From: a virus
IMG/VR virus record: IMGVR_UViG_3300044641_007115
Location: 62,001 to 126,000 of that record
Length of the DNA: 64,000 nt
Direction: 5' to 3' (one strand)
Position 1 is the first letter of the stretch; the number at the start of each line of letters is the position of its first letter. The translations under genes were made by a program, and so were the position numbers. The notes beneath the pieces are model-generated. The model saw only the letters and a list, made by a program, of their open reading frames with translations, was not told the origin of the DNA and ran no database searches. Of this stretch, positions 9,681 to 36,245 are shown piece by piece.

Positions 9681-9856
9681 ATTGCTACTTAGATTAACGC
9701 AGGGGCGTGACATCCGGCTTAGCGTACCGGAAATGAAGACTGCCATCGCGCGTCAGGCAATCTAACGTCGGACTGTTGATGGAATGTCCGCGCACCGGTT
9801 GATCGATCACTCAATCAACCACCTGAGATCAGTTTATCATGATCCCGGTCGGCTGA

Positions 9857-9907: not shown

Positions 9908-11566
9908 TTAGGCGGTCGTGACTTCCGTTTCGTCTTCCGATCCCGAACGGCGGCTGGTGCCACCGCGCATGAAATCGGCCAACAGAACCGGCACGTTGGC
10001 GTCGAAACCAACGAAGTCCATCATACCCATATCCTTCGGATCGGCGATGGAGAACGGCGTCGCCGCCGTTGCGATGACGGCCAGCTTCGCGTTCGGCTTA
10101 TTCCGTTCCTTGCGGTACTTCACAAGCGCTTGCGACGGCTGGATGCTACCGGCCCAAGTTTCGTTGTCCGTGATTACCGTGAAGCAATCGACGTTCAAGT
10201 TGTTCTTGATGCCGTAGATCATCGGCAACGAACAATCCGTACCGCCGCCAAGACCGCGATTCGCCTTCTTCGTTGCCGATTCCAGCGTATCCTTGGCAGT
10301 GATCTTGAGATCGACGAACTGCGTGTCGAACCCACGGATGTCGTAGTTCTGTTCCGTGCGGATGAATACCATCGCTTGCGCGGCGGCAATCATCGCGTGG
10401 GTCAGAGCCGTACCATTCCAACTCATCGTCATCGAACCCGAAAGGTCGATGCCCACCAAAAGGTTCTGTCCGGTCGGCTCCACGTTGGCGAAGGTTCCGT
10501 AGAACGCATCCATCAACGCATCGACAACCGCCGGAACCACCGTCCACGAACCGTTACCACGCTGACCGTGACCGGCACCATAGGTACCGTAGGCCAGCAA
10601 CACCTGAAGCGGGTGGACCCGCGACCGGCGCAAGTATTCGGCATCGCGCAACCGGCTGGCGACCAGCTTGGAAGCATCAGACAGCGGGGCCAACAGGCCA
10701 GACTTCGACATGTTGCCCAAGTTGCGGATCATCGCAGTCAGCGGCATCTTTTGCAAGAGCGCTTCCTGAACCGTCGCGTCGTTGAGGAACTGAGTCGGAA
10801 TCATTTCGCGCGTCAAACCGTAGTCGGACACGATCTTGATGACTTCCTTGGCCGAAGTTGCCTTCTTTGCCAACTCAACGCCGTCGATCACGCGGGACAC
10901 GTCCGGCTTGTACTCACCCTTGGCCGCGTAACGGTAGATCGCGGAGCGAACTTCGTCTTCCGGCTTCGGGTGCGCCAAACGGAGAATGTCGCGCTGTGCC
11001 CATCCTTCACGCTGTTGGTACTTCGCCAACTGGTAGGCCAGATCGCGGGGCGACTTGGCAGAATACCAGTCCTTCACAGCACGGGCCAGAACAGCACCCC
11101 AACCGCGAAGCGAAGTTGCGTAGGAAATGAACGAAAACAGATGCGTGCCCGTGCGCGCGACCACCGGCAACTTGGACGCCGCGTACTGGCGCGTCTCAAT
11201 GACCGGGGAGTCGGTCGGGGACATGGCAAGTGCCAGCGCAAACAACGCCGGATCGTTCTTCGGTGCCCGGCCCGCGTCGCTGATGCCAGCGATCACATCG
11301 ACCGTGCGCTTACCGTCTTCCTTCAGACAGGCGATCACGTTCTTCGCGTGTTCGCGGGTCAGCTTTTCCGCCGAACCACCACTTGCGTAGTAGGCCGGGT
11401 TCTCAGACCCAAGGATCAGGAAGCGCTCCAAGAGCGTCCACTTATCGACGGTGAAAACGAATCCACCGTGGGCGTTCTGCGCCATTTCATTCTCACGTCC
11501 CGGAATCGGCTGATTCTGCGGGGTCGTCTTCCGGCTTGCGCCGTGCAAGCTATAGATGTTTGCCAT
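9908..11566 (-). CDS. rsr: Ro60/TROVE-domain RNA-binding protein (Rsr-like)
   Basis: 552 aa. N terminus NQPIPGRENEMAQNAHGG and FTVDKWTLLERFLILGSENPAYYA is the diagnostic opening of the TROVE ring, which continues as HEAT-like helices to about residue 350 (AYQLAKYQQREGWAQRDILRLAH). The C-terminal VWA domain has an intact MIDAS (VGIDLSGSM) and VITDNETWAG. Ro60 proteins bind misfolded RNAs and Y RNAs, and bacterial Rsr works with PNPase or RtcB. MANIYSLHG was chosen as start because AGAGG precedes it. A terminator follows. No rtcB is in view; a structured RNA candidate lies at 15.4-15.8 kb on the same strand. Confidence 0.93.
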   Translation of the reverse strand: MANIYSLHGASRKTTPQNQPIPGRENEMAQNAHGGFVFTVDKWTLLERFLILGSENPAYYASGGSAEKLTREHAKNVIACLKEDGKRTVDVIAGISDAGRAPKNDPALFALALAMSPTDSPVIETRQYAASKLPVVARTGTHLFSFISYATSLRGWGAVLARAVKDWYSAKSPRDLAYQLAKYQQREGWAQRDILRLAHPKPEDEVRSAIYRYAAKGEYKPDVSRVIDGVELAKKATSAKEVIKIVSDYGLTREMIPTQFLNDATVQEALLQKMPLTAMIRNLGNMSKSGLLAPLSDASKLVASRLRDAEYLRRSRVHPLQVLLAYGTYGAGHGQRGNGSWTVVPAVVDALMDAFYGTFANVEPTGQNLLVGIDLSGSMTMSWNGTALTHAMIAAAQAMVFIRTEQNYDIRGFDTQFVDLKITAKDTLESATKKANRGLGGGTDCSLPMIYGIKNNLNVDCFTVITDNETWAGSIQPSQALVKYRKERNKPNAKLAVIATAATPFSIADPKDMGMMDFVGFDANVPVLLADFMRGGTSRRSGSEDETEVTTA

Positions 11567-11604
11567 GTTATTTTGACCTCTTTTCAAACACTACACCGTG
11601 TTAA

Positions 11605-12276
11605 CTACTCCTGTTCATCTTCCAAACTACGCATCACGTCTTCGAAAGGCACCAGTTCGGCCCGGCCTTCTTCCACTTCATTGATGCGTTCCTTCATCTC
11701 TGCCAGAAACTCTTCGTTCTCTTTAGGACCGCCGTGAAAGCTGATATCCCAATAGATTCCTTCCAGAAATTCCAACAGACTGAGAACTCTTTTGCCGCTG
11801 AGAATTGATTCCGTCCAGTTCCGGCGGATCGTAAACGTCTCATCGATCACAACCGGGATATGCGCCAACTGGTACATCGGTGAGTACGAAACCGACCAAC
11901 GTTCTCCTTGCGCATCCACTCCAATGAAGTCCGTCGAAATGTTGAAATCATTCGTGCCATCATGCTCGAAAACTTCACCGTAGGAACTGACAACCAATTT
12001 GACCAGCGATTCTTCCAGATCCTTACGTGGCTCACGGGCCTGTGCATGGAATTCATCGATTGCCCCACACCATGCATAATGTGCAACAACTTCCTTGAGA
12101 GTCGGATGTTGATCCACAATCGCAAAAATCTGACCCAAAGTCACGCCGTCGTCAACCTTAACCCGAACTCGAAGATCGGTCAGGCGAAACGGCTTTTCGA
12201 CGTAATCCTTCTTTTCCTTTCCATCCCACTCATACGCCGCTAGGCGGTCGCTGTGGAACACAACGTAATCACTCAT
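11605..12276 (-). CDS. hypothetical protein, 223 aa
   Basis: Starts MSDYVVFHSDRLAAYEWDGKEKKDYVEKP with CTGGAG upstream, overlapping the macrodomain gene's end by 4 nt. Alternating alpha/beta prediction: strands DLRVRVKVDDGVTLGQIF, VVSSYGEVFEHDG, FIGVDAQGERWSVSYSPMYQLAHIPVVID, then an acidic helical tail (ENEEFLAEMKERINEVEEG). It sits between the Ro60-like and macrodomain genes in one minus-strand unit. No family recognised; one reading is a globular cytoplasmic accessory factor. Confidence 0.6.
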   Translation of the reverse strand: MSDYVVFHSDRLAAYEWDGKEKKDYVEKPFRLTDLRVRVKVDDGVTLGQIFAIVDQHPTLKEVVAHYAWCGAIDEFHAQAREPRKDLEESLVKLVVSSYGEVFEHDGTNDFNISTDFIGVDAQGERWSVSYSPMYQLAHIPVVIDETFTIRRNWTESILSGKRVLSLLEFLEGIYWDISFHGGPKENEEFLAEMKERINEVEEGRAELVPFEDVMRSLEDEQE

Positions 12277-12713
12277 GTTGGTTCGTATATCTCCAGCCCC
12301 GGTATGAAACCAAGGGAATCCACAATCATGGGTCTAACGACAGACCATTGAAGTCCGCCTAAGCCACAACCGATGGCCGGGATCGCAAGACTCGAAATCT
12401 CATGATCCTTGCACCAGTCAACAAGGACCACCAGACCAGCTTCAATCCACTCTATCTTCGAGGGGTTTCGCCAATGATCCTTGGTCGCAAAGCAGACGAC
12501 CCATTTTGGCGGTGGGGTGGTGTCATGCTGAGGCAACACGATGATGTTGCCCGGAAAAAGCGTTTTTGGTTCAGCACAAGCATGACGATATGAATTTAGC
12601 ACACCCGGAAACCGATTTGCAAACTTTTTTGCAAGACCGGCTCCCATCACTCCCACACAGTTCACCGGGTTGACCCAAACCTGTGCTTGGGACCGGAACA
12701 TATCGCCCGGCAC
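12273..12713 (-). CDS. macrodomain protein, DarG/ADP-ribose-hydrolase-like
   Basis: 146 aa. VWVNPVNCVGVMGAGLAKKFANRFP is the ADP-ribose-binding macrodomain motif of the ALC1/DarG-like branch, and LAIPAIGCGLGGLQW is the second binding loop. DarG-type domains remove ADP-ribose from thymidine in DNA, reversing DarT toxin; others remove it from proteins or hydrolyse ADP-ribose-1''-phosphate. GTG 12713 is the start, with GGAG upstream; the first strand is slightly short. Domain is certain, substrate not. A counter-defence role against a DarTG-like system is inference. Confidence 0.88.
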   Translation of the reverse strand: MPGDMFRSQAQVWVNPVNCVGVMGAGLAKKFANRFPGVLNSYRHACAEPKTLFPGNIIVLPQHDTTPPPKWVVCFATKDHWRNPSKIEWIEAGLVVLVDWCKDHEISSLAIPAIGCGLGGLQWSVVRPMIVDSLGFIPGLEIYEPT

Positions 12714-12717
12714 CGGA

Positions 12718-13137
12718 TCACTCCAATTCCTTCAACTGTTTCAACAACTCTTGCCGCTTCCGTTCCTTCTCAGATTCATCCGGGCGTGACGGCATCGACA
12801 GCACGCGGAAATCGGTTACCCAAACACCCGCGTCGCCGCTACATGGTCCGCTGAAATTCGACTTCGTGTAGGTGACTTCAATTTCCTGTTGATCTTCCAT
12901 CACCTTCAGCAACCGCTTGTAGAGAGCTTCGTCTTTGACGCTGAAATGAAACGCGGACCCATTTACTCCACTACCGCCATTGAATCCGCCCCGGACCAGT
13001 TCACCTTCATAGGTGTCACAGACCATTCCATACTGGCCCATCTTAACCACTTGGCCGATCTTCTTGCCGTCGCCGCTTTTGATGCCATAGCCACAACCGA
13101 CCAAGAACAATCCCATCAACACAAGAACGTATCGCAT
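12718..13137 (-). CDS. putative lipoprotein, 139 aa
   Basis: MRYVLVLMGLFLVGCGYG has a hydrophobic core and lipobox LVGC, so the protein should be lipidated and held at a membrane facing the periplasm. The mature part (KSGDGKKIGQVVKMGQYGMVCDTYEGELVRGG, FSVKDEALYKRLLKVMEDQQEIEVTYTKS) is a beta-rich domain with a CxGDAGVWVTDFRVL end, then a charged helix. Similar phage lipoproteins have been linked to superinfection exclusion or lysis; here that is only a possibility. Confidence 0.7.
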   Translation of the reverse strand: MRYVLVLMGLFLVGCGYGIKSGDGKKIGQVVKMGQYGMVCDTYEGELVRGGFNGGSGVNGSAFHFSVKDEALYKRLLKVMEDQQEIEVTYTKSNFSGPCSGDAGVWVTDFRVLSMPSRPDESEKERKRQELLKQLKELE

Positions 13138-13170
13138 ACATCCATTGTCTATCCGATACCACAGCGCACA

Positions 13171-13205
13171 AAAACAAAAACGCCCCGGCGGAACTCACCG
13201 GGGCG
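13171..13205 (-). terminator. hairpin terminator downstream of 13236 gene
   Basis: Stem CGCCCCGG at 13181-13188 pairs with 13198-13205 around a 9-nt loop. The minus strand continues into a T-rich run (complement of 13171-13180), so it should end transcripts of the VWA unit before the lipoprotein gene. It has some T on the plus side as well. Confidence 0.85.
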
Positions 13206-13235
13206 TTTTGTCGTCGGGAACCAGTCCCAACTCTA

Positions 13236-13559
13236 TCACTTCGTTGTGGTTGTGATGAAACCCGAAGTGGCTGGTGTATTTGTGCCGGTTGTCGTACCAA
13301 TCACTTGGTTCGGCCCACACAAAGTCCAACGCTCCCAATTGTTCCAAGGAAAGTACGGCTTCCACACCGGTTGCGGCACTGGCACCGGCGTCGGCACGAA
13401 CTGTACCTTGTCTTTCCCCTTGACTTCTACGACCTTGATTTTCTCCACAACTTTTTGTTTGACTTGCACCTTGACGGTGTTTGTCTCTTGGTCGAAGAAA
13501 ACCTGTGCGTCGTTTGCGCCATCGATCTGAATTTTCAATCCGTTGATGGTGACTTCCAT
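13236..13559 (-). CDS. hypothetical protein, 107 aa, Val/Lys then Pro-rich
   Basis: Starts 2 nt after the VWA gene ends. N terminus MEVTINGLKIQIDGANDAQVFF and VKVQVKQKVVEKIKVVEVKG are beta strands; then VPTPVPVPQPVWKPYFPWNNWERWT, a Pro/Trp-rich stretch; then a Thr/Gly tail. This resembles a small virion or surface-binding protein, but nothing assigns it. Confidence 0.6.
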   Translation of the reverse strand: MEVTINGLKIQIDGANDAQVFFDQETNTVKVQVKQKVVEKIKVVEVKGKDKVQFVPTPVPVPQPVWKPYFPWNNWERWTLCGPNQVIGTTTGTNTPATSGFITTTTK

Positions 13560-13561
13560 TC

Positions 13562-14230
13562 TTACTTCCTCTTCCCGGTGCCGGTAGTCGTGGTGAACGT
13601 CACGTTGTTTAGAACAGCTTCGTCAACATCTGCCGTCAGATTCATCGACCGGGCGGCACCAGACATTCCTTTCGACACATTCGAAGTGTAGGTGCTCCGA
13701 ACAGCACTGGTCGCATACATCGCTCCCGCTGTGTTCGCCGAAGCGTAATTGACCGAATTCATGATGTTGATGCTCGAAGCCGCCGCCGCCGCGTCCATGT
13801 CCGCGCCGAAGTAGGTGAATCCCCATCCTTGCTTTTGCCGGATGTCGATCAAGGCTTTGATCGCTTCATGGCTGAAGTTCTTCGAAGAGTTCTCCGCACC
13901 ATCGGTGAAGATGTACACCAGAACGTTTTGTTCTCCCTCTTCCGCCGTGTCGATCCGCATGCCGACAGCATCATACAATGCCGTCATTCCATTCGGAGTG
14001 TAATCGGCGGTCCCGATTTCCTTCACTTCGCTCAAGGGCTTGTCAGCAAACACCACTGTAGCTTCAGATGAGAACTTGGTGAGACTGACCGTGTACTCAA
14101 CGTCCTTGGTCTTCTCTTCCTTTCTCATTTCCTGAATCTGTTCATTGAATCCATTGATGACGGTCTTCTGTTGACCTTGCATCGACCCGGATTCGTCCAA
14201 GATAAACTCAACTCTGATTTTGTTCTTCAT
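13562..14230 (-). CDS. von Willebrand factor A domain protein, 222 aa
   Basis: A stand-alone VWA domain: VEFILDESGSMQGQ carries an intact DxSxS MIDAS, TPNGMTALYDAV holds the metal-binding Thr region, and VLVYIFTDGAENSS the Asp. The C-terminal 80 residues are Ala/Ser/Asn/Thr-rich and low complexity (AAAAASSINIMNSVNYASANTAGAMYATSAVR). VWA domains bind protein partners through a metal ion. It is one of three VWA proteins in the window. Good site AGGAAAGGAG before ATG. Confidence 0.85.
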   Translation of the reverse strand: MKNKIRVEFILDESGSMQGQQKTVINGFNEQIQEMRKEEKTKDVEYTVSLTKFSSEATVVFADKPLSEVKEIGTADYTPNGMTALYDAVGMRIDTAEEGEQNVLVYIFTDGAENSSKNFSHEAIKALIDIRQKQGWGFTYFGADMDAAAAASSINIMNSVNYASANTAGAMYATSAVRSTYTSNVSKGMSGAARSMNLTADVDEAVLNNVTFTTTTGTGKRK

Positions 14231-14266
14231 GCTCCTTTCCTTGGGTGCATCTTGCCACCCCTATGT

Positions 14267-14446
14267 TTATGTAGACTGTCCACCAACGGTTTTCGTGCGC
14301 AAAGTCGAATTCTTTTCCAACTTTTCACGCAACCGCCGGGCGGCGTCCAGTTTGAGGAAGGCAATCTCATAGTTGCCGTTCTTCTTGGCGGACTCCGCTT
14401 CGAGTTCGCACCGGTCAATTTCAGCTTGAATCAAATCACGATCCAT
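14267..14446 (-). CDS. small coiled-coil protein, 59 aa
   Basis: MDRDLIQAEIDRCELEAESA and then KKNGNYEIAFLKLDAARRLR form a heptad-like helix with a short polar tail. GGGAGAAGG lies at ideal spacing before the ATG. It lies just upstream of the VWA gene on the same strand. No family recognised; probably a small accessory or assembly factor. Confidence 0.7.
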   Translation of the reverse strand: MDRDLIQAEIDRCELEAESAKKNGNYEIAFLKLDAARRLREKLEKNSTLRTKTVGGQST

Positions 14447-14474
14447 GACCTTCTCCCAACCCCTAAAATGAACT

Positions 14475-14879
14475 TTACCTACTGGTAGTGCTGACTTCGG
14501 AAAACGAGATCGGTGGTGTGTGCTCGAAATCGTAATCCATCACTTCATCATGAGCAATCATCGCCATTCGGTAGTGATGCCGATCTTTGTGCATGATGAT
14601 GCGAATGATGATATTGTCATCGCTGAAATTCGGCAAGCAATCGACAAGGAACCCATCCACGATATTCTTTTCTTTCGCAACGTTCAGAACCGGCGTCAAT
14701 GCCATCTTGAGTTGCGAACAGGAAAAATTGTCTGTGAATAGACCTAGTTGAGCCGCCCGCTGAACCACACCAAATAGATTGTCGCGCAAACCATTCAGGT
14801 CATTGAACCCGGATGGTATGGGCCACATTTCTTCGGTATCAGCACCGACAACTACATCATTTGATAATCGAAATGCCAT
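14475..14879 (-). CDS. hypothetical protein, 134 aa
   Basis: MAFRLSNDVVVGADTEEMWPIPSGFNDLNGLRD is followed by FGVVQRAAQLGLFTDNFS, a helix-rich middle, and strands (IIIRIIMHKDRHHYRMAMIAHDEVMDYDFE). Its short acidic Thr/Ser end (SEVSTTSR) is typical of phage structural accessories. Same direction as its neighbours, separated by about 25 nt. No function recognised. Confidence 0.6.
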   Translation of the reverse strand: MAFRLSNDVVVGADTEEMWPIPSGFNDLNGLRDNLFGVVQRAAQLGLFTDNFSCSQLKMALTPVLNVAKEKNIVDGFLVDCLPNFSDDNIIIRIIMHKDRHHYRMAMIAHDEVMDYDFEHTPPISFSEVSTTSR

Positions 14880-14903
14880 TGACTTCCTTCATCGTAGCGT
14901 GGA

Positions 14904-15110
14904 CTATCCCAAGCGAAAACTGACAACTTTTCCTTCATTCACCGTGAAGGTTACACGGTTTTGTTTCACGTCATTGGTTAACGGGACCGGCATGCCGGGT
15001 TGAATCACGCGCACTTCCATGCCTAGCTGTGTCGCTTTCGCTGTGGCTTCGGTGATCGGCTGTCCCATGAAATTCTGTTTGACGGCAATCGCTAAGGCTT
15101 CATTCAACAT
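14904..15110 (-). CDS. peptidase inhibitor I78-like protein, 68 aa
   Basis: Start MLNEALAIAVKQ chosen because AAGAGGAAG lies upstream and the gene overlaps the end of the membrane gene at 15100. The pattern GQPITEATAKATQLGMEVRVIQPGMPV followed by NRVTFTVNEGKVVSFRLG fits the I78 elastase/subtilisin-inhibitor fold (GxxxxxA...VRVIRPGxxVTxDxRxDRLxVxxDxxGxI). I78 proteins block serine peptidases. No signal peptide is present, so it would act in the cytoplasm or virion. Family likely, target unknown. Confidence 0.65.
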   Translation of the reverse strand: MLNEALAIAVKQNFMGQPITEATAKATQLGMEVRVIQPGMPVPLTNDVKQNRVTFTVNEGKVVSFRLG

Positions 15111-15369
15111 CTGGTTCTTCCTCTTCATCTTCTTCTTCGTCTTCATCAGGTTCCCGGCTGAGCCAAAGAACAATGACCAATACCAACGCACTGATAGAAA
15201 CAAACGCTCCTGACCATGCGGCAATCACAACAACCGGATTGGACGGGAATGTGTGAATGGACCAATTGACAGAAACGTAGAGCGCTGTCAATAGCAGGAT
15301 AAGAAGATTGATCCCACCGAAAACAGCGGCGTATTCAGCAATGCGTGAACGGATTTTGTCGGGTTGCAC
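15100..15369 (-). CDS. two-helix membrane protein with acidic tail, 89 aa
   Basis: GTG start at 15369. Two hydrophobic segments (YAAVFGGINLLILLLTALYVSV and VVVIAAWSGAFVSISALVLVIVLWL) end in a strongly acidic tail (REPDEDEEEDEEEEPDVE). The coding strand has TAAATC 6 nt before the GTG, the late-type spacing. Size, two helices and charged C terminus would suit a holin-type or spanin-adjacent protein, but no lysin is next to it, so this is not claimed. Confidence 0.65.
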   Translation of the reverse strand: MQPDKIRSRIAEYAAVFGGINLLILLLTALYVSVNWSIHTFPSNPVVVIAAWSGAFVSISALVLVIVLWLSREPDEDEEEDEEEEPDVE

Positions 15370-15375
15370 GTGATG

Positions 15376-15381
15376 GATTTA
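15376..15381 (-). promoter_or_regulatory. late-promoter-like TAAATC, 6 nt before start
   Basis: The coding strand reads TCTAAATCCATCAC then GTG 15369; the hexamer ends 6 nt before the start. Confidence 0.4.
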
Positions 15382-15439
15382 GACACGCCAGAAGACGGCA
15401 TCCCAATCATATTGAGTCTGTTGTGCAATTGCTCGGTTC

Positions 15440-15803
15440 GGTGGAAATGGAATCTACCTAGCGCGGGCTACTCCGCTAAGTCGATTCCCTTTCGCGTCTG
15501 TCGTGCTTCGGACAGGCGGTCGCCCTTGATCTTGGTGGTCGCTACCAGTGGTTCTCTATCGGTGGCTCCGGGGTCATACCACATTCTTCCAAGTTCCCCA
15601 CTGAAGGGGTCAGGTATGGGTCCGGTAACTGACGACACTCCACACGCCGCTCTACATGGTCTGTTGTGGGTATTCCCACCGTTTGCCAAAAGCCATGCAG
15701 CCGGGTCAATTCCCGACGAACTGCGGTCCTACGTGCCGGGCACCTTTCGGTGCCGATATTCTGCGATTAGGCTTGGGTGACTGAGAACGTCTTGAGCGCC
15801 TGA
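15440..15803 (-). ncRNA. candidate structured RNA in the only large gene-poor stretch
   Basis: Between 15370 and 15854 no convincing gene is present. The stretch holds at least six compact hairpins: 15449-15488 (two nested stems), 15498-15515, 15568-15625 (CATACC/GGTATG around a CCCC/GGGG hairpin), 15666-15679, 15702-15715 and 15739-15754. The last has a GNRA loop (GAAA) only when read on the minus strand, which favours that strand. TTCTGA, 17 nt, TATATA (minus strand, near 15810) could be a promoter. It does not match a tRNA, tmRNA or RNase P RNA that I can recognise. It lies on the same strand as the Ro60-like gene 4 kb away. Confidence 0.5.
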
Positions 15804-15854
15804 TTCCTATATAGCATACAGGTTCGTTGTTCAGAACCTAAAACGGCGAAGTCC

Positions 15855-16289
15855 ATGAAAACATTCCAAAGATTCCTTCGAGAGTCATACGAACTCTTGC
15901 CCGGCACCCTGCTCTTGATCGTTCAGGGTGGCGGATTCAGCCGTCGTATCCAGTATGGCGTAACGACCGGGCGGGTGGTTTTCAAAATCAACAACCTTCA
16001 TCAGCACGGTCATGAGTTCAAAGGCACACCGACACATGAAGTGATCGACATCGGCGGAATGCAAACTGAAGTTCTTTTGCCGGGCGTCAAGCCCGGCGAC
16101 ATCATCCAAAGCCATTTGCAGTTGGATGGTCTTCCCGGTGGGTCGATAATTGAATCCACCTTGCCGGGGTCGGACGGCCAGTACAAGAAAACGGATTCGA
16201 TGAAGTGGACCAAGGTTGGTTCTCCGACCGGCGCGAAATTTGACTCGTTTCACTTTGACGCATCGCTTAAATACAAGTGGGTCAAATAA
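15855..16289 (+). CDS. candidate packaged protein with capsid-targeting N terminus, 144 aa
   Basis: MKTFQRFLRE is almost the T4 capsid-targeting peptide (MKTYQEFIAE). The remainder (ELLPGTLLLIVQGGGFSRRIQYGVTTGRVVFKI, VIDIGGMQTEVLLPGVKPGD, PGGSIIESTLPGSDGQYKKT) is a beta-barrel-like domain. GAAGTCC precedes the ATG; TAAAAC is 8 nt upstream. It would be placed in the capsid and cut after RE; what it does there is unknown. It is followed at once by a tail-tube-family gene. Confidence 0.65.
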   Translation: MKTFQRFLRESYELLPGTLLLIVQGGGFSRRIQYGVTTGRVVFKINNLHQHGHEFKGTPTHEVIDIGGMQTEVLLPGVKPGDIIQSHLQLDGLPGGSIIESTLPGSDGQYKKTDSMKWTKVGSPTGAKFDSFHFDASLKYKWVK

Positions 16290-16292
16290 TCT

Positions 16293-16847
16293 ATGCCAAT
16301 GGACACTACAGCCGAACAACTCATCGGCATCATCAAACGCCAGCCTTCGAACCCCAACTTTTTGAATGCTCATCGTTTTCGGATGGTTCTTCATCGCACG
16401 CCGTCGATGATCTACTTCATGCAAGAAGTCAACCTTCCGGGAATTTCCACTGGTGCGCCGATTCAACCAACGCCGTTTGTGGACATCCCGCATCACGGCG
16501 ACAAGCTGGTGTTTGAAGATTTGACGGTGAGTTTCGCTATCGATGAGGACATGAAGAATTACAGGGAAATCCAACAGTGGTTGTATGGATTGACCTTTCC
16601 GCAACGGTTCGAACAACATGCCGATCTTGTGCAAGGAATGCATAACCGGTACTCCGATATTCTACTGGTGATCCTCAACAGCAACTACAATCCACAACAC
16701 TACGTCATGTTCCGTCAGGCGTGGCCGTCTTCGCTTGGATCGATCCAGTTCAATTCGAAGGATCAGGACGTGGTTGTACAGCCGGTTTCTGTCACATTCA
16801 AGTATGCGTATTATGAATTTTTGGATATCGGCGACGTGTCATCATAA
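16293..16847 (+). CDS. tail tube / tube-initiator family protein (gp19/gp54-like)
   Basis: 184 aa. FRMVLHRTPSMIYFMQEVNLPGI, then TPFVDIPHHGDKLVFEDLTVSFAIDEDMKNYREIQQWLYGLTFP, is the tube-fold pattern (LPG..., GDKL.F..L...F..DE...Y..I..W). The C-terminal ILNSNYNPQHYVMFRQAWPSSLGSIQFNS and VSVTFKYAYYEF close the barrel. Such proteins stack to form the tail tube or cap the baseplate hub. The second tube-family gene (21686-22135) suggests one is the tube and the other an initiator; this one, with the longer DE...NY insert, may be the gp54 counterpart. Confidence 0.75.
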   Translation: MPMDTTAEQLIGIIKRQPSNPNFLNAHRFRMVLHRTPSMIYFMQEVNLPGISTGAPIQPTPFVDIPHHGDKLVFEDLTVSFAIDEDMKNYREIQQWLYGLTFPQRFEQHADLVQGMHNRYSDILLVILNSNYNPQHYVMFRQAWPSSLGSIQFNSKDQDVVVQPVSVTFKYAYYEFLDIGDVSS

Positions 16848-17467: not shown

Positions 17468-17938
17468 ATGGTACTGGAAGACTACGCGGCTCTGGCAGAC
17501 AAAGAGCTTCGGATTGATGTGACGCGGCTTGTCGAAGAAGCCGCGTCCATCGCCTATCTCCACGGTCGGTGGATGAAGTTCTACGAAGAAGAGAAGAGGC
17601 AATTCCGCCGGATGAAGCGGGAAGTCGCCAAGATGTACACGAAGCGGTTCAACTTCTATCGCGGCACCGGCGACCCTGATGATTTTCCGAATGAGCGCCC
17701 GCCGGATTTGATTCTCGATACATCCATGAAGACCGGCACGAAGAAGCGTAGCCATACGCCGGTCAACGTGGTCGAAATGTACATGGAATCCGACGATCTG
17801 TATCAGGACATGAAAGACAAGCTGGAAGATCAAGAAGTTCTTTTGGACTATCTCGAACAATGTCTCAAGGGTATTGCCTTCCGCCGGAACCAGATCGATA
17901 CCATCAACGAAACCCGCAAGTTCGAGTTTGGAAGGTGA
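17468..17938 (+). CDS. uvsY: UvsY recombination mediator
   Basis: 156 aa. LEDYAALADKELRIDVTRLVEEAASIAYLHGRWMKFYEEEKRQ and YTKRFNFYRGTGDPDDF follow T4 UvsY (LEDLQEELKKDVFIDSTKLQYEAANNVMLYSKWL... DYYSGRGDGDEF) along the whole length, ending RKFEFGR like its DMRAFEAGK. UvsY helps load UvsX recombinase on ssDNA covered by single-strand-binding protein. An insertion of about 20 residues (MKTGTKKRSHTPVNV) is extra. Position next to capsid-type and uvsW genes matches the T4 neighbourhood. Confidence 0.9.
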   Translation: MVLEDYAALADKELRIDVTRLVEEAASIAYLHGRWMKFYEEEKRQFRRMKREVAKMYTKRFNFYRGTGDPDDFPNERPPDLILDTSMKTGTKKRSHTPVNVVEMYMESDDLYQDMKDKLEDQEVLLDYLEQCLKGIAFRRNQIDTINETRKFEFGR

Positions 17939-18874: not shown

Positions 18875-20392
18875 GTGGTCGTCATTCGCAAAGTCAACGA
18901 ATCCTATCTTCAGGTTGACGCCGATCCCGGAATCGTTCGAGAGATCAGCGAAGTTCTAACCTTCGAAGTCCCGAACGCACATCACATGCGCCGCATGATG
19001 GAGAAGCGCGGGCGCAAGATGTACAACAATTGGGATGGGCGCATCAAGCTGTTGGACTATCGCAACGGCGCGGCCTATCTTGGTCTTCACCGTTTCATTC
19101 GTCAGTACTGCGAAGAGAACAACTATGAAGTCCAGTACGAAGACAACTTCGATTCAGAAAACCCTTTCTCCCTGTGGGAAGCCCGTAAGTTCTTCGAGTC
19201 ACTAAACCTGTCTGTACAGGGTAAACCGCTGGATGTGCGCGACTACCAAGAGCGTGCATTTGTTCACGGGGTTCAGCGCCGCCGGGCCATTCTCGTTTCT
19301 CCCACGGCGTCCGGCAAGTCGCTCATCATCTATCTTCTGTTGCGGTATCTGCAAGAGTACAAGATGGGAGACACGGGGAAAATTCTTGTCATTGTTCCCA
19401 CGACATCGCTGGTCGAACAGATGTACTCCGACTTCGCCGATTACAGCGCGGCGGACCCGAATTGGAATGTCGAAGAGAATGTCCATCGCGTCCACTCCGG
19501 GGCGGAACGAAACACCGATCTTCCAATCACTGTGACGACGTGGCAGTCCATTTATCGGATGAACGATGAGTGGTTTTTACAATTCCACGGGGTTGTCGGT
19601 GACGAAGCCCATCAGTTTGACTCCAAATCGCTCAGCAAGATTATGTCGTCGCTGGTGAACGCGGAGTATCGTTTCGCCACGACCGGCACATTGAAGGGAT
19701 CGATGGTCAATGAAATGGTGTTGGAAGGTCTGTTCGGTCAGGTCTACAACGTCACCACGACCCGCGAACTCATGGATGCTGGTACGGTCGCGGATCTGAC
19801 AATCAAAGCGCTGGTGCTCCGTTACTCCGATGAAGATTGTCAAATGGTCCGGGGTGCCGACTTCCATGCGGAGCGGGACTACATTTCCGCACACACGACC
19901 CGCCGGAACTTTGTGCGCAATCTGGTGTTGAGCCTGAAAGGAAACACGCTGGTTCTTTTCGCTCTTGTCGATAAGCAGGGGAAGCCGCTGTATGAGTCGA
20001 TCATGGAGCGGGTGGAACCGGGCCGAAAGGTCTTCTATGTCTCCGGTGAGACGGAAGCCGATGACCGGGAACAGGTGCGTCAGATCACGGAACAGGAAGA
20101 GAACGCCATCATCATTGCCAGCTACGGCGTCTTTTCGACCGGTGTCAATATCCGCAATCTGGACAATCTGGTATTCGCCGCCGGGACGAAATCGAAGATC
20201 CGTACCCTACAAAGCATCGGTCGCGGCCTTCGGAAAAGTGATCGGAAATCCACGGTGACGGTCTTCGACATCGTGGATGATTTGAGCGTTAAGTCTAAGA
20301 AAAATTTCGCCTTAATGCATTTCGCCGAACGCTTGGCGTTCTATGCGGCGGAACAGTTCCGGTACAAGATTTACCGGATCGACCTGTCGTAA
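18875..20392 (+). CDS. uvsW: UvsW DNA/RNA helicase
   Basis: 505 aa superfamily-2 helicase. The N-terminal part (HHMRRMMEKRGRKMYNNWDGRIKLLD) matches the UvsW substrate-binding domain. Motifs: LVSPTASGKSLIIY (Walker A), VGDEAHQFD (DEAH-type), FATTGTLKG (III), GVFSTGVNIRNLDNLVFA (V) and LQSIGRGLRKS (VI). UvsW unwinds R-loops and branched DNA, shifting replication from origin to recombination mode. GTG 18875 is used; the ATG at 18871 is out of frame. About the length of T4 UvsW. Confidence 0.95.
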   Translation: MVVIRKVNESYLQVDADPGIVREISEVLTFEVPNAHHMRRMMEKRGRKMYNNWDGRIKLLDYRNGAAYLGLHRFIRQYCEENNYEVQYEDNFDSENPFSLWEARKFFESLNLSVQGKPLDVRDYQERAFVHGVQRRRAILVSPTASGKSLIIYLLLRYLQEYKMGDTGKILVIVPTTSLVEQMYSDFADYSAADPNWNVEENVHRVHSGAERNTDLPITVTTWQSIYRMNDEWFLQFHGVVGDEAHQFDSKSLSKIMSSLVNAEYRFATTGTLKGSMVNEMVLEGLFGQVYNVTTTRELMDAGTVADLTIKALVLRYSDEDCQMVRGADFHAERDYISAHTTRRNFVRNLVLSLKGNTLVLFALVDKQGKPLYESIMERVEPGRKVFYVSGETEADDREQVRQITEQEENAIIIASYGVFSTGVNIRNLDNLVFAAGTKSKIRTLQSIGRGLRKSDRKSTVTVFDIVDDLSVKSKKNFALMHFAERLAFYAAEQFRYKIYRIDLS

Positions 20393-34856: not shown

Positions 34857-36245
34857 ATGATTTTACGACGGACGGACTCCTACAAGGTAGGACATTTCGG
34901 GCAATACCCGCCGGGAACGAAGATGATTCATTCGTATCTCGAAGCGCGTGGTGGCATGTTTCCACGGACTGTAGTCTTCGGAAACCGCTACTACATGGAA
35001 CGCTACATGGCCGGACAACAGGTGGATTTGCCGTCCATCGATCAAGCGGAGAAGCACGCCTATCATCACTTCGGTAACGGTGACATGTTCAACCGGGCCG
35101 GTTGGCTCCATATCCTCGAAAAGCACAAAGGGCGGCTTCCGTTGCGGATCTGTGCGCCGCCGGAAGGCACGGTGGTTCCGACTGGCAACGTGCTGATGAC
35201 CATTGAAAACACGGATGAAGCCGTTCCGTGGTTGACCAACTACGTCGAAACGATGCTCATGCGGGAATGGTACCCGTACACGGTTGCTTCGCTGAGCTAC
35301 TACTGTCGTGACATCATCCTCAAATACCTGATCGAAACCGGCACGCCGGAAGACATCTGGTTCAAGTTGCATGATTTTGGCGGACGGGGCGGATCGTCCA
35401 CGGAAACCATCGAAATCGGTGGTGCTGCCCACTTGGTCAATTTCAAGGGAACTGACACCCTCGAAGCCATCGACTTCCTGTTCCGGTGGTACGACGCCAA
35501 CTTCGAAAACTATCCGGCCTTCTCTGTCGCCGCGTCTGAACATTCCACGATGACGACGTGGGGCCAGAAACGGGAACGCGACGCTTATGCGAATATGCTG
35601 GAAAAGTATCCGACCGGCATTGTCAGCGTCGTCAGCGATTCGTGGGACATCTTCAACGCGGTAGACAAGATTTGGGGACAGGAACTCAAGGATAAGGTTC
35701 TGAACCGCAACGGGCGTGTAGTCATCCGGCCCGACTCCGGTGAAGTCATCCCGACTTTGATTGCCATTTTCCGGTCACTGGAAGCCCGCTACGGCATGGA
35801 AACGAACGCGAAGGGATACAAGGTCCTTCCGCCGCAAATTCGCGTCCTGCAAGGCGACGGCATCACGTCCTTGACCATCGAACCGATCCTTCAGGCGCTC
35901 AAGGCCGAAGGCTGGTCCGCTGACAACATCGTGTTCGGTATGGGCGGCGGTCTTCTTCAGAAGGTGGACCGGGATACCATGTCGATGGCGCTGAAGTGCT
36001 CCCGCGCCCTCATCGGCGATGAAGAGATCGATGTCTACAAGGCGGCGCGCGGTAAGGGTTCGAAGCGTGGTCGGTTGGCATTGATCGCCAATGGCGACAG
36101 CTTTAGCACGGTGCGTATCAATGAAGCGGAGATCCCCGGCAACGTTCTCAGTCCCATCTTCCTTGACGGTGACAGCACCAGCAAGCCGACCATCTACGAC
36201 ATTCGCAAACGCTCCACCCCGGCACTTCTCCGGGCGGCGGCATGA
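34857..36245 (+). CDS. nadV: nicotinamide phosphoribosyltransferase (NAMPT/NadV)
   Basis: 462 aa. LRRTDSYKVGHFGQYPPGTKM, SYLEARGG, YVETMLMREWYPYTVAS, HDFGGRGGSS, AASEHSTMTTWGQ, SDSWDIFNAV, VIRPDSGE and VFGMGGGLLQKVDRDT are the NAMPT motifs in order. It joins nicotinamide to PRPP, giving NMN. With an NMN adenylyltransferase this rebuilds NAD, a route known in phage KVP40 and shown to counter NAD-depleting defences (NARP2). AAGGAAG precedes the ATG. Confidence 0.94.
   Translation: MILRRTDSYKVGHFGQYPPGTKMIHSYLEARGGMFPRTVVFGNRYYMERYMAGQQVDLPSIDQAEKHAYHHFGNGDMFNRAGWLHILEKHKGRLPLRICAPPEGTVVPTGNVLMTIENTDEAVPWLTNYVETMLMREWYPYTVASLSYYCRDIILKYLIETGTPEDIWFKLHDFGGRGGSSTETIEIGGAAHLVNFKGTDTLEAIDFLFRWYDANFENYPAFSVAASEHSTMTTWGQKRERDAYANMLEKYPTGIVSVVSDSWDIFNAVDKIWGQELKDKVLNRNGRVVIRPDSGEVIPTLIAIFRSLEARYGMETNAKGYKVLPPQIRVLQGDGITSLTIEPILQALKAEGWSADNIVFGMGGGLLQKVDRDTMSMALKCSRALIGDEEIDVYKAARGKGSKRGRLALIANGDSFSTVRINEAEIPGNVLSPIFLDGDSTSKPTIYDIRKRSTPALLRAAA

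Follow-up and report, generated by a model that had tools for sequence, protein, structure and literature searches.

What lies at the junction of two divergent operons (positions 15370-15854), on the same DNA as a Ro60 gene, in a large T4-like phage? The stretch analysed here, called the window, is 64,000 nucleotides long and corresponds to positions 62001-126000 of the 224,490-bp virus record IMGVR_UViG_3300044641_007115 (G000 denotes whole-genome coordinates, L-numbers denote stretches or contigs). An earlier note on this DNA had paired the Ro60 protein with a candidate structured RNA in the junction. We find that positions 15389-15803 of the junction are, with very high confidence, a conserved non-coding structured element, and probably a new structured RNA.

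The evidence comes from comparison with one diverged sister phage (the contigs behind L003-L005), only two sequence variants being known. Over 390 nt from position 15400, the two phages are 96.4% identical, the highest value among 290 intervals scanned over ~18 kb (mean 85.9%). The Ro60 gene is 94.5% identical and the immediate neighbours of the element 82-91%. Within the element, the two variants differ by indels of 1, 1, 2 and 1 nt. Because these are not multiples of three, the element is non-coding, and a protein-coding reading of 15389-15803 is ruled out.

Covariation in relatives, which the earlier note had named beforehand as a check, points to a maintained fold. Among 19 substitutions in 487 aligned columns, 8 fall at paired positions and all 8 are compensated. 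Four pairs are double-compensated, and all 140 predicted pairs remain intact in both lineages. In 120 simulated sisters, with the same substitutions placed at random positions and refolded, 88 runs gave no double change, 29 gave one and 3 gave two. In addition, sliding the pairing by 1-3 columns lowered the fraction of paired cells from 100% to 33-41%. The single-sequence folding energy is not beyond chance (z ~-1 on both strands, -1.5 for the core). Hence, it is conservation together with compensatory change in excess of chance that argues for a real element; hairpin content alone does not.

The predicted helices are listed in Table 1. Where the earlier note counted at least six hairpins in 15370-15854, more than six are seen, and the GNRA-capped one that it had assigned to the minus strand is present. 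Its description of this region as the only sizeable gene-free stretch was not confirmed: crude gene calling left other gaps, and 9690-9825 is a further conserved non-coding stretch. On the minus strand, the core contains 105 A vs 68 U, and 43% of the unpaired bases are A. The U-G and G-U wobbles of the closing helix P1 on this strand would read as A-C mismatches on the plus strand. The minus strand is thus favoured by the A-rich loops, the GNRA loop and the P1 wobble pairs. The element is likely to be an RNA made from the minus strand as a separate transcription unit.

Table 1 Coordinates of the features discussed, in window positions
Feature	Position	Strand	Basis or remark
Orphan element, probably a structured RNA, ~410 nt, ends approximate	15389-15803	-	Conservation, non-triplet indels, covariation, no Rfam match
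Closing helix P1, 5' strand (AAGACG and UCUCAGUCA)	15778-15793	-	Alifold helices 4 and 5
Closing helix P1, 3' strand	15392-15409	-	Alifold
GNRA-capped hairpin GGCACC-GAAA-GGUGCC	15739-15754	-	Invariant in sister phage
Hairpin GUCGGG...CCCGGC	15700-15717	-	Fold prediction
Hairpin with two double compensatory changes	15666-15679	-	GUGGG-AAUA-CCCAC to ACGGG-AAUA-CCCGU in sister; clearest case
Hairpin CCCC...GGGG	15596-15609	-	Fold prediction
Hairpin CUGUC...GACAG	15498-15515	-	Fold prediction
Longest hairpin, 19 bp, interrupted	15444-15493	-	One A-U to U-A compensatory pair
Late-promoter-like site of downstream operon (GTCTAAATCC, then ATCAC-GTG)	15375-15384	-	Score 9.0, 99.99th percentile genome-wide
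Extended -10-like element TGCTATATA, just upstream of RNA/P1	15808-15816	-	Conserved in sister
Inverted repeat AGGTTC-N8-GAACCT, upstream of putative promoter	15820-15839		Arms invariant, loop differs in sister
Degenerate late-promoter-like CCTAAAAC before ATG of gene at 15855	15838-15845	+	Suggested by comparison with late sites; unscored
Ro60/TROVE-vWA protein gene	9908-11566	-	Pfam, structure-relative alignment
Second conserved, structured non-coding stretch	9690-9825 (approx.)	-	Directly behind Ro60 terminator
Tail completion/tube gp3-like gene	16293-16847		Right of element; PHROG 45
UvsY-like recombination mediator gene	17468-17938	+	PHROG 231, 4.1e-24
UvsW-like helicase gene	18875-20392	+	PHROG 16, 1e-96; named UvsW in several relatives
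SbcCD/gp46-47-like nuclease genes	Right of 15855		T4-like gene set

The earlier statement that the region resembles no recognisable RNA family was borne out. Rfam covariance models run on the element, at gathering thresholds and at E up to 10, gave nothing save one chance-level leader match. The ROOL, GOLLD, OLE, RNase P and transfer-messenger RNA (tmRNA) models had no match at the element, nor did the YrlA model at E up to 10, so that the search that covered Y RNA, GOLLD, ROOL and RNase P came back empty; RNase P sequence motifs are also absent near the element. Queried by blastn, 50,697 phage and 72,556 plasmid records yielded short chance matches only; a 31-nt match in a Salinibacter plasmid is a GATAGnGACCAC simple repeat. 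Viral k-mer or pattern scans and protein-anchored scans, checked by blastn or nhmmer, recovered just lineage members and chance matches, and the best distant candidate homologue (L139) turned out to be coding sequence. Scans of genome contigs for the element found nothing. Relatives reached through UvsW, gp3 and a 144-aa gene are either 90-100% identical lineage members or ~40% relatives, and an nhmmer search of the loci of the ~40% group detected no copy of the element. Between gp3 and the capsid gene, Synechococcus phage Bellamy and Pelagibacter phage HTVC008M have a single small gene and no sizeable gap. Overall, the element appears to be confined to one lineage in the databases searched.

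What is new here is the position of the element in the genome, which is origin-like in composition skew. Along the 224-kb genome, the cumulative GC skew reaches its global minimum at 78496 (window 16496), and the element (77389-77803 in G000) lies 0.7 kb away. Across this minimum, the third-codon-position skew, read on the plus strand, goes from -0.24 on the left to +0.01 on the right in plus-strand genes; in the few minus-strand genes it rises from 0.00 to above +0.1. Because the shift occurs within each gene strand, the switch does not merely reflect gene orientation. When gene strand was entered as a covariate, a change-point model built on crude gene calls, with a resolution limit of 0.5 kb set by its spacing, placed the origin at 77.5-78.5 kb (window 15.5-16.5 kb); its improvement was 99, as compared to 82 for the best of 100 permutations. 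Three sister contigs, all fragments, have their skew minimum ~0.6 kb from the element and on the same side. The active origins of T4 (oriE, oriF and oriG) sit at switches of transcription direction and composition, and at oriF, also called ori(uvsY), a promoter-driven RNA is kept as an R-loop and serves as primer until UvsW unwinds R-loops and shuts off the origin (PMC3016281). The strand and composition-skew switch found here likewise lies near a uvsY-like gene; this gene and uvsW follow the element on its right, at ~1.7 and ~3 kb. It is reasonably probable that the element is at or next to the main replication origin.

Promoter motifs derived from the whole genome of the phage (L100-L111) comprise an early motif, TTGACATATA(A/G)GTC-N-TGCTATNNT, with 23 sites, and a T4-like late motif, (C/A)TAAATA(C/G), close to start codons. 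Genome-wide, the extended -10-like TGCTATATA next to P1 ranks above the 99.9th percentile in its fit to the -10 of the early promoters, which is suggestive only, and the inverted repeat beyond it is a possible operator. On the other side, the late-type site at 15384-15375 directly precedes a GTG start, with a start-codon spacing like that of other late sites. With late-like sites before both flanking genes, there is no need to see the element as the leader of one operon or the other. Taken together, these sites suggest borders for the element as a transcription unit.

We tentatively favour the reading in which 15389-15803 is a ~410-nt folded minus-strand RNA, a unit of its own at the main origin and most likely an origin transcript. 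The computed properties on which it builds are conservation, non-coding nature, kept pairing, absence from known families and the skew-switch position near uvsY/uvsW; transcription, strand and any priming role are what we infer. RNA polymerase would initiate at the -10-like site (~15816), and the RNA would fold during synthesis into the closing helix and ~20 inner helices. The fold would control either retention of the RNA on the DNA template or its processing from it, and the retained or processed RNA would prime leading-strand synthesis. Such an RNA would resemble the oriF R-loops of T4 in where it lies and what it is for, and plasmid RNA II in that a structured RNA is used. A part in replication initiation is conceivable for it, at somewhat short of even chances. 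That a large T4-like phage begins replication from a long folded transcript with conserved structure, that is, from a structured RNA primer in a double-stranded DNA phage, is a more doubtful proposition. If the RNA does act at the origin, it would give a direct handle on what controls the formation of R-loops where phages begin replication, an open question in the T4 literature (PMC3016281), and its fold is open to mutation and compensation.

The likeness to T4 oriF extends to a T4-like phage, the proximity of uvsY/uvsW, the transcription and skew switch and the promoter-driven transcript proposed here. However, the minimal oriF is ~100 bp long with a MotA promoter and an AT-rich unwinding element, whereas the present locus is GC-richer and carries a 410-nt conserved fold. 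As to a middle-mode promoter for the origin transcript, an extended -10-like element alone was seen. The ColE1-type RNA II, a plasmid pre-primer, is likewise a folded transcript of several hundred nt at an origin. This parallel serves as a working idea only: no sequence similarity was found, and ColE1 is a plasmid and not a phage.

Several observations weigh against an origin transcript. The covariation amounts to four pairs in three helices from two variants, one of these helices being weak (2 bp), and the simple shuffle control of the tool itself matched the result in 39 of 500 cases. No good -35 accompanies TGCTATATA, and a generic sigma-70 scan finds no promoter. At any divergent operon junction, proximity to the skew minimum is in part to be expected. 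The element is 44% AT, with no strong AT-rich unwinding element there; the best nearby 60-bp AT peak (65%, at 16236) is on the other side, and no iterons were found. Finally, the R-loops of T4 oriF do not depend on any particular RNA sequence (PMC3016281), and a model built on them does not predict a conserved fold.

The main rival is a stand-alone, trans-acting structured RNA of the ROOL, GOLLD or OLE type, serving as a ribonucleoprotein scaffold, ribozyme or decoy and located near the origin by chance. The same conservation and covariation that argue for a real RNA argue for it, as do the promoter-like site of the element, the late-type site that separates it from the next gene, and the further RNA machinery of this phage, which carries a permuted tmRNA and ~40 tRNAs. 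With ROOL, GOLLD and OLE the element shares a large size, a structured nature and a phage or mobile-element context. If it acts in trans, it would be a new family of large RNAs, and the phages that carry it have unusually rich RNA baggage (permuted tmRNA, ~40 tRNAs, Ro60). Nevertheless, such RNAs are usually more widespread, whereas this element is smaller, lacks any Rfam match even at E 10 and has no homologue outside one lineage in our searches; the position at the skew minimum is also left unexplained. A trans-acting role is therefore a serious possibility, on balance doubtful.

The other explanations are far less probable. A cis-regulatory 5' leader of the minus-strand operon to which Ro60 belongs would account for the common strand, the directly upstream location and the lack of a detected terminator in between; it is nonetheless unlikely, as the late-type promoter site stands immediately before the first gene, no known leader family matched, and a multi-branched fold of 410 nt is long for a leader. 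Compensatory changes would preserve extruded DNA hairpins as well, and the skew minimum and the conserved palindrome at 15820-15839 suit an origin element acting as DNA, through such hairpins or protein-binding sites. Yet no iterons were found, and the A-rich loops, the GNRA loop and the G-U wobbles of the closing helix better fit an RNA from one strand, which makes a DNA-level element improbable too. As for chance structure in a non-functional spacer, the ordinary folding energy would agree with it, but it is hardly credible: the best-conserved stretch of the region and compensatory changes beyond the null largely refute it.

The earlier note's claim of a full-length Ro60/TROVE protein with intact metal ion-dependent adhesion site (MIDAS) is supported by domain matches and alignment. 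The 552-559 aa protein, encoded on the minus strand, matches Pfam TROVE (1.8e-38) and vWA_Ro60 (1.9e-52). Its best solved relatives are D. radiodurans Rsr (2nvo, 6e-107) and vertebrate Ro60 (~1e-101), to which it aligns nearly end to end (residues 12-535 of 552), both TROVE and vWA being covered. The MIDAS residues are kept in this alignment: DxSxS (DLSGS), T (GGGTDC) and D (TDNETW). It also retains the residues aligned with K170, R174 and H187 of human Ro60, which we take to be RNA-binding. A Ro60 relative occurs in 358 phage records, most of them labelled “Ro-like RNA binding protein”, and jumbo-phage papers already mention TROVE/Ro60 proteins (PMC7824862, PMC7765460). The phage Ro60 is thus already known, ordinary and typical. 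Two genes upstream of Ro60 lies a gene for a macro-domain protein (12273-12713, minus), and a second, smaller vWA-like protein is encoded in the same gene run (13562-14230, minus). Among RNA repair partners, neither RtcB nor a PF09414 RNA ligase was found in the genome.

The intact protein, with these residues retained, and the shared strand are compatible with a Y RNA-like partner. However, the element is not beside Ro60: to call it near was generous, with 3.8 kb and ~eight genes in between. Across the whole genome, the YrlA model gave only sub-threshold matches, nearly all in or by tRNA clusters and none near Ro60 or the element, and ARAGORN finds no tRNA at the element. As a positive control, the Rfam YrlA model picks up weak matches in Mycobacterium phage Sparky and Streptomyces phage Comrade, a short distance upstream of Ro60, unlike the arrangement seen here. 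Bacterial Y RNA/YrlA (RF02553) with its Ro60 (Rsr) shares with the present case the Ro60 protein in the same genome and region, whereas the element has no YrlA similarity, no tRNA-like module that could be found, and no adjacency to Ro60. A typical Y RNA has ~80-120 nt, several times less than this fold. In addition, its own promoter-like site and the late-like site toward the Ro60 operon make the element look like a separate unit, and its position at the skew-inferred origin points away from a Ro60 partnership, which we consider very improbable. Of the earlier proposal, the structured RNA of no recognised family is supported, and the phage Ro-RNA particle is not. Whether the RNA acts at the origin or in trans, the two things joined there come apart into a phage Ro60 of the ordinary kind and an orphan RNA unrelated to it.

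Should Ro60 have an RNA partner nearby, the stretch at 9690-9825 is better placed for that role than 15389-15803, though the case is weak. Its folding z is -1.75 on the minus strand vs +0.3 on the plus strand, and it is retained in sister contig L003, in which the following gene is divergent. Tried as a Y RNA, it was rejected: its compensatory changes are within the null and Rfam gives no match. It could be a small RNA or a leader.

To the right of 15855, where a plus-strand gene begins, the region is occupied by T4-like genes, in whose proteins the nearest cultured relatives are just ~40-47% identical. Further RNA genes lie outside the window. The permuted, two-piece tmRNA (L102:4946-5187, minus; G000 ~45 kb) scores 98 bits to RF04321, with ANSNVLAMAA as ARAGORN tag. 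A tRNA-Cys(GCA) gene (L106 ~10928-11080, G000 ~131 kb) also looks circularly permuted, its 3' half preceding its 5' half; UUCG joins the acceptor strands, and a long inverted repeat, GGAAGTGGCAAG...CTTGCCGCTTCC, closes the outer ends. Nearby, two tRNA genes (L106 ~11365-11495 and 11505-11630) seem to contain inserts of ~50-60 nt with common ends, TCTTCRYCGCC...AGCCGnnnGnTGAnGGTTATC, that also occur in the flanks of the permuted-looking tRNA-Cys; the inserts may represent a small intron or an element for processing. Within the window, the phage carries a nicotinamide phosphoribosyltransferase gene for NAD salvage (34857-36245, plus).

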